NCBI RefSeq assembly: GCF_008271745.1
Contig: NZ_VKKZ01000020.1
Location: 558,001-622,000, forward strand
DNA from: Rufibacter glacialis
Lineage (GTDB): Bacteria > Bacteroidota > Bacteroidia > Cytophagales > Hymenobacteraceae
Length of the DNA stretch: 64,000 nt
Direction: 5' to 3'
The position numbers were made by a program, and so were the translations under genes. Positions within the stretch are counted from its first letter, which is position 1. Each line of letters opens with the position of its first letter. Of this stretch, positions 47,160 through 52,028 are shown one piece after another. Under the pieces are notes generated by a model, which searched no databases, had not been told where the DNA came from, and saw only the letters and a program-made list of their open reading frames with translations.

Positions 47160-47354
47160 ATGGCACATCCTAAGCGAAAAATCTCCAAAACCAGAAGAGA
47201 TAAGAGAAGAACGCACGACAAAATCACTCCAAAGGCGATTTCTATCTGCCCTAACACCGGGGAGGTGCACCAATACCACAGAGCTTACGTGGTAGACGGA
47301 GATTTGTACCACAACGGTAAAGTGGCGATCAAAAATTATACCTCTGTTGCCTAA
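47160..47354 (+). CDS. rpmF: 50S ribosomal protein L32, form without the zinc ribbon
   Basis: The 64-residue protein starts [21 protein letters not shown] as expected for L32. Zinc-binding L32 has four Cys in a CxxC...CxxC ribbon; here only one Cys remains ([16 protein letters not shown]) and the second pair is replaced by VVDGDLYHN. It is therefore a Cys-minus form. It is the only L32 visible and sits in the normal yceD-rpmF-plsX place, so it is probably the main copy. Confidence 0.95.
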
Positions 47355-47418: not shown

Positions 47419-48360
47419 ATGAAAATAGCTCTGGATGCAATGGGCGGCGATTTCGCCCCCGACGCAGTTGTAGAAGGCGCACTTTTGGCGGCTGAGACAT
47501 TAAAGGATAAGGTGGAGATTTTCCTCATAGGAGATGAAGACCGCATCCATTCCCTCCTTCAAAAGCACCACTACACTGGTTCCAGAGTACAGGTTGTTCA
47601 CGCATCTCAAGTCATTGGGATGGGTGAACACCCTACTAAAGCCCTTACCCAGAAACCTGATTCCAGTATTGCGGTAGGGTACGGCATGCTGGCCTCTAAG
47701 AAAGTAGACGCCTTCTGCAGCGCTGGCAACACCGGCGCCATGCTGGTGGGGGCCGTGTTCAGCGTGAAACAGGTAGAAGGCATTCTTCGGCCGGCGCTGG
47801 CCAGCTTTGTGCCCAAACTCACTGGCGGGTACGGGGTCATGTTAGACGTAGGCGCCATTGCCGATTGCAAACCAGAGATTCTGGAGCAGTTTGGAGAAAT
47901 TGGCTCTATCTGCGCAGAGTTCCTGCTGGACATTGAGAAACCCCGCGTGGGCCTCATGAACCTGGGAGAGGAAGAAGGCAAAGGCACCATGGTGACCCAG
48001 CCTACCTACAAACTCCTCAAAGAAAACAAATCCATCAACTTTATCGGGAACATTGAAGGCCGCGACCTGTTCAATGACAAAGCCGATGTCATCGTTTGCG
48101 ATGGCTTCACCGGAAACGTCATTCTGAAACTGGCTGAGTCTATCTATGACATCCTGGTAGAGAAAAAAATCAATGATCCCTTCTTTGACCGCTTCAACTA
48201 TGAGGCGGTTGGCGGAAGCCCCATTTTAGGGGTGAACGGGAACGCGGTCATTGGCCACGGCGTCTCCACCCCTACTGCTATCTGCAATATGCTGCACCTG
48301 GCCAACAAAATGGCAGAGTCCCATATCTCAGACAGATTCAGAAAATACTTTGGTGCCTAA
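47419..48360 (+). CDS. plsX: phosphate acyltransferase PlsX
   Basis: The 313-residue enzyme makes acyl-phosphate from acyl-ACP for phospholipid synthesis. MKIALDAMGGDFAPDAVVEGA, SAGNTGAMLVGAVF, LGEEEGKGT and VCDGFTGNVILK are the family motifs, at normal length. It lies between rpmF and fabH, the usual arrangement. Confidence 0.97.
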   Translation: MKIALDAMGGDFAPDAVVEGALLAAETLKDKVEIFLIGDEDRIHSLLQKHHYTGSRVQVVHASQVIGMGEHPTKALTQKPDSSIAVGYGMLASKKVDAFCSAGNTGAMLVGAVFSVKQVEGILRPALASFVPKLTGGYGVMLDVGAIADCKPEILEQFGEIGSICAEFLLDIEKPRVGLMNLGEEEGKGTMVTQPTYKLLKENKSINFIGNIEGRDLFNDKADVIVCDGFTGNVILKLAESIYDILVEKKINDPFFDRFNYEAVGGSPILGVNGNAVIGHGVSTPTAICNMLHLANKMAESHISDRFRKYFGA

Positions 48361-48396: not shown

Positions 48397-49395
48397 ATGA
48401 GCAAAATAACCGCCGCGATCACCGGTGTGAGCGGATATGCCCCAGAGTATGTGATGACCAACCACGAGTTGGAGACCATGGTGGACACCAACGACGAATG
48501 GATCGTGAGCCGCACGGGCATCAAGGAAAGGCGCATCCTGAAGGGGGAAGACCAGGGCACCTCGGCCATTGCCATTCCGGCCGTGTTAGACCTCCTGAAA
48601 AAAACCAACACCGACCCTGCTGAGGTGGAAATGCTCATCTGCGCCACCACCACCCCAGACCTGGTGTTCCCGGCTACGGCCAATATCATCACTGCTGAAA
48701 CCGGCTGTGTCAACGCCTTTGGCTATGACCTGCAGGCTGCTTGCTCTGGTTTCCTGTTTGCCCTGGCCACTGGGGCGCAGTTCATAGAGACAGGTAAATA
48801 CAAGAAAATCATCATCGTGGGCGCTGATAAGATGTCCGCTATTGTAGACTATACAGACCGCGCTACTTGCATCATCTTCGGAGATGGTGGCGGAGCGGTC
48901 ATGCTGGAGCCCAACACAGAAGGATTAGGGGTGCAGGACAGCATCCTGAAGTCCGATGGGTCCGGGGTTCCTTTCCTGCACCAGAAAGCGGGCGGCAGCC
49001 GCCGTCCGGCCACGCAGGAGACGCTTGACCGCCGCGAGCACTTCGCGTTCCAGGAAGGGCAGCAAGTATTCAAGTTCGCGGTGAAAGGCATGGCCGATGT
49101 GTCTGCCGAGATCATGGAGCGCAACCACCTGACCGCCGACGACATTGCCTGGCTTGTGCCGCACCAGGCCAACAAGCGCATCATTGACGCTACGGCCAAC
49201 CGTATGGGCGTAGGCCCTGAGAAGGTGATGATCAACATCCAGAAATATGGCAATACCACCAGCGGCACCATTCCCTTGTGCCTGTGGGAGTATGAAAATC
49301 AACTTAAAAAAGGAGATAATGTGGTTCTAGCGGCTTTTGGCGGTGGATTTACCTGGGGCTCCATTTACCTCAAGTGGGCGTATGACCCCAAGTAA
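48397..49395 (+). CDS. fabH: 3-oxoacyl-ACP synthase III (FabH)
   Basis: The 332-residue ketoacyl synthase starts fatty acid elongation from acyl-CoA and malonyl-ACP. The triad is C116 in [13 protein letters not shown]256 in VPHQANKRI, and N286 in [22 protein letters not shown] and the C-terminal [16 protein letters not shown] are conserved. The terminator at 49432-49463 follows. Confidence 0.97.
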
Positions 49396-49431
49396 GCAGA
49401 CTGTTTTTCGTCTTCTTTTATAAAATAGATC

Positions 49432-49463
49432 AAAAAATTCGGCTATCTTTGGCCGAATTTTTT
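49432..49463 (+). promoter_or_regulatory. terminator hairpin of fabH whose loop is the efp -7 promoter motif
   Basis: A perfect 12-bp stem AAAAAATTCGGC / GCCGAATTTTTT (49432-49443 with 49452-49463) has exactly the 8-base loop TATCTTTG (49444-49451). The hairpin followed by T-rich sequence fits a fabH terminator; the loop is a perfect TAnnTTTG for efp, with a predicted start near 49457. Confidence 0.75.
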
Positions 49464-49518
49464 TATGTCCAAACGGGAAAAACCCGTAGACATTTTAAAC
49501 CGAAATACACCATACCCT

Positions 49519-50082
49519 ATGGCAACAACCGCTGATTTCCGCAACGGGCTTTGCATTGAATTCAACGGCGACTTATGGCTCATCTCTGAGTTTCAGCACG
49601 TGAAACCAGGCAAGGGCCCCGCTTTCGTTCGCACCAAACTGAGAAACATCAAAACCGGTAAAGTACTGGACAACACCTTTACCGCCGGGGTGAAAGTAAC
49701 CACCGCCCGGGTTGAGCAGCGGCCCCACCAATTCATCTTCAAAGACGATTACGGCTACAATTTCATGGACCTGGAGTCTTTTGAGCAGGTAAGCCTGGAA
49801 GAGCGTATGGTGCCTTTCGCTGACCTGATGAAGGAAGGCCAGGAAGTGACCATCCTGTTCCACGCGGAGACAGAAACGCCGCTCACCGCTGAACTTCCTA
49901 CGTATGTAGAGCTGGTGATCACGTATACAGAACCGGGCATCAAAGGAGATACCGCCACCAATACCCTAAAACCAGCCATTGTTGAAACCGGAGCCACTAT
50001 TTCTGTGCCCCTGTTCATTGGCCAGGACGAGAAAATCAAGGTAGACACGCGTACCTATACCTACGCCGAACGAGTAAAATAG
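49519..50082 (+). CDS. efp: elongation factor P
   Basis: The 187-residue three-domain factor helps ribosomes through polyproline stretches. It starts MATTADFRNGLCIEFNGDLW; the loop HVKPGKGPAFVRTKLRN carries the lysine at about 35 that is modified in other species. The C-terminal domain has GDTATNTLKPAIVETGATISVPLFI. ATG 49519 is used, not the earlier in-frame ATG inside the fabH terminator tail. The accB start is 4 bases past its stop. Confidence 0.96.
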   Translation: MATTADFRNGLCIEFNGDLWLISEFQHVKPGKGPAFVRTKLRNIKTGKVLDNTFTAGVKVTTARVEQRPHQFIFKDDYGYNFMDLESFEQVSLEERMVPFADLMKEGQEVTILFHAETETPLTAELPTYVELVITYTEPGIKGDTATNTLKPAIVETGATISVPLFIGQDEKIKVDTRTYTYAERVK

Positions 50083-50086
50083 AACT

Positions 50087-50569
50087 ATGAAAGCCAAGGA
50101 AATCCAAGAACTGATTGATTTCATCGCGAAATCAGGCCTGAACAAAGTTGACATTGAGACCGAGGAGTTTAAAATCTCCGTGCAACGGGAAGCCAGCCAG
50201 AAAGTGAAATACACTACTGGCCCTGCGCAGGCACCACAGGCGCCTCAGGCCCTGCCAGCTGCCCCGGCCCCACAGGCCGCCCCTGCCGCACCCGCAGCCC
50301 CTCAACCGGCCGCTGATGACTCCAGCAAATACCTCACCATCAAGGCGCCTATGATTGGTACCCTTTACCGGTCAGCCAACCCAGAAACACCAGCGTTCGT
50401 GAACGTGGGCGACGAGGTGAAAAAAGGCCAGGTCATCTGTATCATTGAAGCCATGAAACTGTTCAACGAGATTGAATCTGAAGTTTCAGGCAGAATTGTA
50501 AAGGTATTGGTTGACAATTCCACCCCAGTGGAATACGACCAACCCCTGTTCTTGGTAGACCCTAGCTAA
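50087..50569 (+). CDS. accB: biotin carboxyl carrier protein of acetyl-CoA carboxylase
   Basis: The 160-residue protein carries the biotinylated K124 in IIEAMKLFNEI. The N-terminal helical part (1-35) is followed by an Ala/Pro/Gln linker (about 45-80) and the biotinyl barrel (LTIKAPMIGTLY... to PLFLVDPS). It moves carboxyl groups between AccC and the carboxyltransferase for malonyl-CoA synthesis. It is coupled to efp upstream and followed by accC. Confidence 0.96.
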   Translation: MKAKEIQELIDFIAKSGLNKVDIETEEFKISVQREASQKVKYTTGPAQAPQAPQALPAAPAPQAAPAAPAAPQPAADDSSKYLTIKAPMIGTLYRSANPETPAFVNVGDEVKKGQVICIIEAMKLFNEIESEVSGRIVKVLVDNSTPVEYDQPLFLVDPS

Positions 50570-50573
50570 TTCA

Positions 50574-50682
50574 ATTTGAATATTTGAAAATTAGATGATT
50601 TGGAAATGGAGATACTATTTGTGTCTCCTTTTTCATCATATCATCTTCCCATCTCCAAATCTTCAAATCTTCTAATCTGACA
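50574..50682. repeat. inverted octamer arrays filling the accB-accC gap
   Basis: Left: five octamers of type ATTTGAAN (50574-50613). Centre: GGAGATACTATTTGTGTCTCC hairpin-like region (50608-50628, GGAGA/GTCTCC). Right: six octamers of type ATCTTCAA (50635-50682). The right array ends two bases before the accC ATG at 50685, as in the hemL case. Arms are complementary and can form a long hairpin between two genes of the same operon. Confidence 0.88.
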
Positions 50683-50684
50683 AC

Positions 50685-52028
50685 ATGTTCAAAAAAATAC
50701 TAATTGCCAACCGTGGCGAGATTGCGCTTAGGGTGATCCGAACGTGCAAAGAAATGGGAATCAAGACGGTAGCCGTGTACTCTACCGCCGATAAGGAAAG
50801 CCTGCACGTGCGTTTCGCGGATGAGGCCGTTTGCATTGGGCCTGCCTCTAGTGCCCTCTCTTACCTCAACATGCCTAACCTGATTGCCGCCGCGGAGATC
50901 ACCAACGCCGACGCCATCCATCCTGGTTATGGTTTCTTGTCTGAAAACGCGGAGTTTTCCAGAATCTGCGCTGAAAACGGCATCAAGTTCATTGGCGCCT
51001 CCCCAGAGATGATCAACTCCATGGGTGACAAATCCTCGGCCAAGGAATACATGAAAAGAGCCGGGGTGCCTACCATTCCAGGTTCTGACGGGTTATTAGA
51101 GTCGGCTGAGCAAGGCAAGAAACTGGCCGCCAAAATCAAGTACCCGGTGATCATCAAAGCCACCGCTGGTGGTGGTGGGCGCGGGATGCGCATCATCAAA
51201 TCAGCTGATGAATTTGACAAAGCCTGGAACGATGCCCGCCAGGAAGCCAAAGCGGCCTTCGGGAACGACGGCATGTACCTGGAGAAATTCGTGGAGGAAC
51301 CCCGTCACATCGAGATCCAGATCGTGGGCGACCAGTTTGGCAAGGTATGTCACCTGTCTGAGCGGGATTGCAGCATCCAGCGCCGCCACCAGAAACTGAT
51401 TGAAGAAACCCCCTCTCCTTTTATTGACGACGACCTGCGCGAGCGCATGGGCCAGGCAGCCATTGCCGGTGCTGCCGCCATCAACTATGAAGGCGTGGGA
51501 ACCATTGAATTCCTGGTGGACAAGCACAAGGACTTCTACTTCATGGAGATGAACACCCGTATTCAGGTGGAGCACCCCATCACCGAGGAAGTAGTGAACT
51601 ATGACCTGATCAAAGAGCAGATCAAAGTAGCGGCCGGTATCCCTATCTCGGGCAAGAACTACTACCCGCAGATGCACGCCATTGAGTGCCGCATCAACGC
51701 CGAGGATCCTAAGGCCAACTTCCGCCCTAGCCCCGGCAAGATCAACGTGCTGCACATTCCAGGTGGTCACGGGGTACGCGTAGACACGCACGTTTATGCG
51801 GGTTACACCATTCCAGCTAACTATGACTCCATGATCGCGAAACTGATTGTGAGCGCCCAAACGCGCGAAGAGGCGTTGGTGAAGATGAAGCGGGCCTTGA
51901 GCGAGTTTGTGATTGAAGGCGTAAAAACCACCATTCCGTTCCACTTAGCCATGATGGATGATGAAGGCTTCAAATCCGGAAACTTCACCACCAGCTACCT
52001 GGATAGCTACGATTTCACGCAGTTGTAA
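50685..52028 (+). CDS. accC: biotin carboxylase subunit of acetyl-CoA carboxylase
   Basis: The 447-residue ATP-grasp enzyme carboxylates biotin on Acc[25 protein letters not shown], the glycine-rich ATP loop [31 protein letters not shown]-type motif ([15 protein letters not shown]) and the catalytic [13 protein letters not shown] are intact. It has standard length. A long hairpin after the stop is its terminator. Confidence 0.97.

Follow-up and report, generated by a model that had tools for sequence, protein, structure and literature searches.

In Rufibacter glacialis, the 32 bases at positions 49432–49463 of the window (the whole stretch of 64,000 nucleotides analyzed here, contig NZ_VKKZ01000020.1, positions 558,001 to 622,000) probably act as a compact stop-and-start signal, where an intrinsic terminator for rpmF-plsX-fabH would carry, as its loop, the −7 promoter box of efp-accB. 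On the strength of sequence comparisons, we place the probability of this reading at about three in four. Terminators and promoters are usually annotated apart, and here one 32-base sequence appears to serve both. Strongly conserved and specific to this locus, the element fuses a predicted terminator with a predicted promoter, both parts being of known kinds. In the part of the literature that was covered, no account of a terminator loop carrying a promoter box at the fabH-efp junction was found; PMC7055797, which matched the term “terminator-promoter overlap”, appears to concern gene order.

Gene Context and Anatomy of the Hairpin

The anatomy of the element, its conservation and its promoter-like box are read directly from the sequence. 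The inverted repeat consists of 12 perfect pairs around an 8-base loop (Table 1), and the initial annotation, which had described a hairpin with a 12-bp stem and an 8-base loop corresponding to a promoter motif, was correct to the base with regard to both sequence and fold. The fabH stop codon is 36 nt upstream of the hairpin, and the efp start codon follows 55 nt downstream of it. The plus-strand RNA of 49428–49467 has a minimum free energy of −16.8 kcal/mol (z −5.9; equally stable shuffles 0/200), and its fold adds two weak pairs (U-G and A-U) that shrink the loop to UCUU. A stable stem-loop is also predicted in 16 of 16 congeners, with energies from −12.6 to −19.0 kcal/mol, and seven T residues are found in and directly after the 8-bp core stem. 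The minus-strand RNA folds at −14.1 kcal/mol, and a simple terminator scan listed the hairpin on this strand only. Judging from the scan rule, the plus strand was missed because the T residues were counted into the 12-pair stem, leaving no T-rich tail; with the 8-bp core AATTCGGC/GCCGAATT taken as the stem, the T-tract comes next on the plus strand. The hairpin thus resembles intrinsic (Rho-independent) terminators in having a GC-containing stem followed by a T-tract soon after a stop codon, and in that the A-tract together with the T-tract gives a terminator-like form on the other strand too. It differs from them in that its loop is a near-invariant promoter-like box and in its identity between congeners, which exceeds that of 26 other predicted terminators (see below).

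Family matches give the gene order rpmF-plsX-fabH, element, efp-accB-accC. The suggestion of a transcriptional reset separating lipid from translation genes is contradicted by this order, as both sides are mixed, with rpmF next to plsX and fabH upstream and efp next to accB and accC downstream. The closest named relatives of the EF-P protein are from Rufibacter and 93–94% identical. Its start codon was set at 49519, because the family model NF001810 aligned from residue 1. An alternative start at the ATG at 49465, which is open in frame in the window, was rejected: the frame from that ATG meets a stop in one congener (G012), another (G002) is without an ATG there, and two more (G007 and G014) have GTG and then a stop. 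We also refrain from proposing a second, weak hairpin in the efp leader, at approximately 49465–49493. Most congeners can form it, but the mean z is −1.28, with z < −2 in 3 of 16, and 94.0% of the cells pair as compared with 92.9% in shuffles. The 13 aligned leaders (L086, L094 and L095, which have other layouts, were left out) contain 0 pairs changed on both sides and hence give no covariation support.

The gap between accB and accC measures 115 nt and contains another terminator-like hairpin, so that accC could belong to the efp transcript or lie outside it. That hairpin (50608–50628, GGAGATACTATTTGTGTCTCC then TTTTT) is poorly conserved in the congener G006. Inspected by eye, the region 50570–50684 and the equivalent gaps in L081–L096 diverge strongly between species, and several of them contain long imperfect inverted repeats, e.g., of the TTTGAAAATTTG.. 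or TTAGCACATTAGCACATT.. types, resembling inserted repeat elements.

Table 1. Features of the fabH-efp junction and its surroundings, in window coordinates.
Feature	Position	Strand	Basis or remark
rpmF, 50S ribosomal protein L32, upstream unit	47160..47354	+	NCBIfam TIGR01031 above cutoff
plsX, phosphate acyltransferase, upstream unit	47419..48360	+	NCBIfam TIGR00182 above cutoff
fabH, beta-ketoacyl-ACP synthase III; transcripts presumably ended by the hairpin	48397..49395	+	NCBIfam TIGR00747 above cutoff; stop codon 49393–49395
Hairpin 5′ arm, AAAAAATTCGGC	49432..49443	+	sequence, fold; upstream of the −7 box, within the promoter region
Loop, candidate Bacteroidota −7 promoter box TATCTTTG (consensus TAnnTTTG)	49444..49451	+	sequence, box orientation, conservation
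Hairpin 3′ arm, GCCGAATTTTTT	49452..49463	+	sequence, fold
Predicted efp transcription start (A)	49456	+	box placed at −12 to −5 (available excerpts of PMC9723704)
Predicted efp leader, 63 nt	49456..49518	+	predicted start to start codon
Seven-T tract; predicted fabH 3′-end region, positions +3 to +9 in the putative efp RNA	49458..49464	+	sequence
efp, elongation factor P	49519..50082	+	NCBIfam TIGR00038 above cutoff
accB, biotin carboxyl carrier protein; 4 nt past the efp stop	50087..50569	+	NCBIfam TIGR00531 above cutoff
accC, biotin carboxylase	50685..52028	+	NCBIfam TIGR00514 above cutoff

Conservation of the Element in Rufibacter

In the genus set of 16 Rufibacter genomes, the genome of the window (G000) included, a hairpin is found between fabH and efp in 16/16 and the loop is exact in 15/16, which argues that the overlap of terminator and box is not due to chance; conservation in relatives, put forward as a check by the initial annotation, is thus confirmed. 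The exact core CGGCTATCTTTGGCCG occurs as a single copy per genome in 15 of the 16, in every case a short distance upstream of the efp match. The exception, G013, has the loop TATCTTTA, in which the last base of the box is lost (TTTA), and has also lost two inner stem pairs, but its hairpin still folds (−12.6 kcal/mol). Among the 16 genomes, mean pairwise identity reaches 0.981 in the hairpin, as compared with 0.656 in the preceding gap, 0.642 in the efp leader and 0.785 at the 3′ end of fabH. Invariant columns number 28/32 in the hairpin vs. 13/97 in the flanks (Fisher p ~2e-14, assuming independent columns, in a region that the initial annotation had fixed beforehand). Both the seven-T tract and the inner 5′ arm are invariant in 16/16, whereas the A-tract that pairs with the T-tract varies, with A changed to G in G007, G008 and G014. 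A fixed T-tract facing a variable mirror A-tract fits a role for the U-tract of the RNA.

Other predicted terminators provide a yardstick for this conservation. Predicted terminators of G000 were compared between both genomes where the gene upstream of them had an ortholog within the 800 kb of G006 that were covered. This hairpin alone among 27 was fully identical; the next reached 0.93 and the median was 0.68, although misplaced alignments may account for low values where coverage was also low. In this sample, conservation of stem and loop is stricter than in the other predicted terminators.

The Loop as a Probable Promoter Box

The −7 consensus of Bacteroidota promoters is given as TAnnTTTG in the available excerpts of PMC9723704 and PMC7366714. 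The loop sequence TATCTTTG occurs 6 times in the window vs. 1.97 expected, and at least 6 occurrences were seen in 2/100 shuffles. With rough gene calls based on the length of open reading frames, and counting gaps of at least 40 bp only, intergenic TATCTTTG is oriented toward a gene start in 18/19 cases in 800 kb of G000, and its reversed-letter control GTTTCTAT in 6/8. The degenerate box TAnnTTTG, scored in the same way, points toward a gene start in 111 of 149 cases (111 in 116,582 bp vs. 38 in 106,886 bp), while the controls GTTTnnAT and TTnnTATG give 57 toward vs. 38 away (57/95) and 26 vs. 42 (26/68), respectively. Moreover, among genes comparable with G006, TATCTTTG is retained upstream of 6/7 orthologs, efp included. 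By these measures, TATCTTTG is promoter-like in the Rufibacter genome.

At the locus itself, the box is oriented toward efp and ends 67 nt before its start codon. As far as the available excerpts of PMC9723704 indicate, the −7 box of Flavobacterium psychrophilum is located at −12 to −5, and the predicted efp transcript, positioned likewise, begins with AAUUUUUUU. The 45 nt upstream of the loop box contain zero TTG, whereas TTG is over-represented 18–22 nt upstream of TAnnTTTG-type boxes in the G000 genome. In F. johnsoniae, no −33 motif could be identified, according to the excerpts of PMC7366714, and thus a −33 element is perhaps no strict requirement. The idea of a combined terminator and promoter, advanced by the initial annotation, finds good support in conservation, box orientation and the comparison with other terminators; the −7 box is perfect, but the missing TTG counts against it. 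Compared with known primary-sigma promoters of Bacteroidota (−7 TAnnTTTG, −33 TTTG), the element shares a perfect −7 box, its aim at a gene start and a purine at the predicted +1; it differs by the missing −33 TTG and by having hairpin arms as its spacer and start region. It is well known that reiterative transcription of the pyrBI type occurs at a T-tract at the start site. The predicted beginning of the efp transcript resembles this arrangement, but the T-tract here is fully accounted for by the terminator.

Loop promoters as a genome-wide design are not supported. Using a crude detector that misses some true cases, in samples from three genomes a box was found in the loop of 3/123 predicted terminators preceding a co-directional gene, vs. 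~1.1 expected: 2/47 in G000 (0.38 expected), 0/32 in the first 400 kb of G006 (0.33 expected), and 1/33 and 0/11 in two parts of G016 (0.33 and 0.08 expected). Two of the three are fabH-efp junctions. The third case, at C19:435436–435466 of G000 (L132:15436–15466), has TAGATTTG across its loop and follows a large mutase-like gene (named by eye). Its GGGAGCC/GGCTCCC stem is kept at the orthologous G006 site and in congener matches, of which those in G002 and G014 cover the hairpin only and may sit at other genes, while the loop has changed and contains no TAnnTTTG. As its box is lost in relatives, this candidate for a second functional loop promoter was rejected as probably due to chance. Folding around boxes is not unusual either (54/130, vs. 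17/38, 23/60 and 16/40 for controls and 683/1684 for random positions).

Proposed Mechanism and Alternative Explanations

Under the preferred stop-and-start reading, a polymerase coming from rpmF-plsX-fabH would transcribe both arms, and the RNA hairpin together with the U-tract would release the transcript at approximately 49459–49464. Independently, a primary-sigma holoenzyme would bind TATCTTTG, the hairpin loop in DNA, and start efp(-accB) transcription at approximately 49456, within the 3′ arm. Since efp transcripts would begin past the 5′ arm, the hairpin could not form in them and would not terminate them. This amounts to a simple direction rule, where the terminator would be visible only to incoming polymerases, i.e., those transcribing the 5′ arm. 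The loop would be held fixed by its promoter function, and the arms by serving together as terminator stem, promoter spacer and start region. Within the T-tract, the end of the fabH RNA and the beginning of the efp RNA would have a few bases in common. We infer the actual termination and start sites, the use of the sigma factor and the independence of both functions from the conserved layout.

Another possibility is that this is an ordinary fabH terminator whose likeness to TAnnTTTG arose by chance, efp being expressed via read-through or from another promoter. We consider it unlikely. The lack of a −33 TTG would suit it, the loop box at C19:435436–435466 looks like exactly such a chance match, and the fabH-efp gap in distant Cytophagales such as Algoriphagus is operon-like (~20–30 nt), which suggests an ancestral operon; the exact loop in 15/16 genomes though other predicted terminators diverge, the box orientation statistics and a Pontibacter box at a similar distance from efp (see below) all speak against it. 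Conservation of the arms could also reflect a DNA operator, in which a dimeric regulator binding AATTCGGC-N8-GCCGAATT over the −7 box would repress efp-accB. Half-sites symmetric about the box would agree with this model, as would arms whose sequence itself is conserved and shows no compensatory changes, a pattern that fits protein binding. The invariant T-tract facing a non-invariant mirror A-tract is not expected from it, and TTCGGC-N8-GCCGAA is present elsewhere in only 4/16 genomes, at one site each and with different middles, i.e., less often than the reversed control. Allowing at most 3 mismatches, 17 matches per strand are found in the own genome vs. 18 for the control, and the same inverted repeat at several promoters, as in a regulon, was not seen in excess over the control pattern in the 16 genomes. 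A repressor site is quite unlikely, although one confined to this single location would be compatible with these counts.

The two functions might also be coupled, the polymerase that releases the fabH RNA staying on the DNA, taking up sigma and restarting at the adjacent box, so that efp would follow fabH. The predicted release site lies ~3–8 nt from the predicted start, and a box without a −33 element suits a polymerase already on site. According to the available excerpts of PMC6978380 and PMC6978322, E. coli polymerase can be retained on DNA after intrinsic termination and restart; in an in-vitro assay, restart at a downstream promoter followed 37% of terminations, or 55% with added sigma (excerpts of PMC6978380). 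As the excerpts of PMC6978322 state, restarts were mostly antisense, and same-direction restarts concerned <2% of the retained polymerases, on a template that had its sense promoter at the other DNA end. The present case offers an arrangement that restart of the E. coli kind could use, namely a promoter-like box that coincides with a terminator; it differs in that the box is located within the terminator and faces the same way, and in that the phylum is another one (comparison with the excerpts of PMC6978380 and PMC6978322). The precedent does not come from Bacteroidota, and this scheme has no need of a hairpin around the box. Physically, a polymerase hand-over at this site is plausible in view of the E. 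coli single-molecule work, yet we regard the terminator-fed promoter as most improbable. That fabH-ending polymerases are handed to the loop box and restart as efp polymerases, EF-P and acetyl-CoA carboxylase output thereby tracking the L32-PlsX-FabH unit, is very unlikely as well; as a part of this scenario, the seven-T region shared by both RNA ends could add UTP-dependent slippage. If hand-over did take place, the missing −33 element would reflect recruitment by hand-over and not from solution. Being nearly invariant within the genus and having an analogue in a second one, the locus offers a natural test of on-the-spot restart by a terminator-released polymerase.

Relatives Outside Rufibacter

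The analogue is found in 2/2 genomes of a second genus (G016, Adhaeribacter terrigena BT258, and G021), where a different and longer hairpin between fabH and efp has TAATTTTG in its loop region. These hairpins fold at −20.9 and −25.0 kcal/mol, with TAATTTTG 109 and 114 nt upstream of the efp start, respectively. Among 130 distinct efp upstream stretches, scored by a crude rule that misses the hairpins of Rufibacter L088 and L092 and of L110 (G021), which are seen in folds, 24 have a terminator-like hairpin and 14 of these have the box in its loop, namely 13 from Rufibacter plus A. terrigena. Outside L081–L096, a hairpin without the box is present in 10 stretches and no hairpin by this rule in 103; in the same pass, L096 was without the exact box and L215, at a contig end, was too short.

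In Pontibacter, TAnnTTTG is located 66–79 nt before the efp start in 13/15 named loci (vs. 75 nt in the window), and also in 9/11 further distinct g3 loci, counted after removal of identical 110-nt stretches and leaving out L227–L231 (too little coding sequence). L231 has TACCTTTG upstream of its efp gene. A look at the 1.5 kb preceding efp revealed no FabH end in 13 of the 15 named Pontibacter loci; a FabH-like motif is seen in L016 and L018, its end lying 461 and 419 nt from efp, respectively. The rule-based pass found no terminator-like hairpin containing the box in Pontibacter efp upstream regions. A second box-like sequence, TACTTTTA, is present 33–46 nt from the efp start codon in 12/15 named loci, and as it is nearer to efp, the homologous Pontibacter box may not be the one used. 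Note also that a conserved block, TAA(C/T)TTTGTTTGCAAGACAGCG..TATACTTTTATC, is visible by eye in Pontibacter efp upstream regions (e.g., L004, L005 and L008), with TTTG ~20 nt before TACTTTTA; this block hints at a further promoter, or else a regulatory site, ahead of efp.

Finally, we would like to mention Hymenobacter-type fabH-efp junctions, where TATACTTGCA is observed 8–9 nt before a GC-rich hairpin, ACGTGCCG..CGGCACGT, and where TATACTTG is one mismatch from TAnnTTTG. The 18 loci of this type (L216–L221, L223, L225, L226, L020, L021, L023, L027, L030, L031, L104, L106 and L109) were picked by eye for TATACTTGCA and the hairpin; some represent one genome twice, and L223 has the box without the full hairpin. 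If it is true that TATACTTGCA is the −7 box of efp in these genomes, the efp RNA would open with a hairpin, in an attenuator-like manner.
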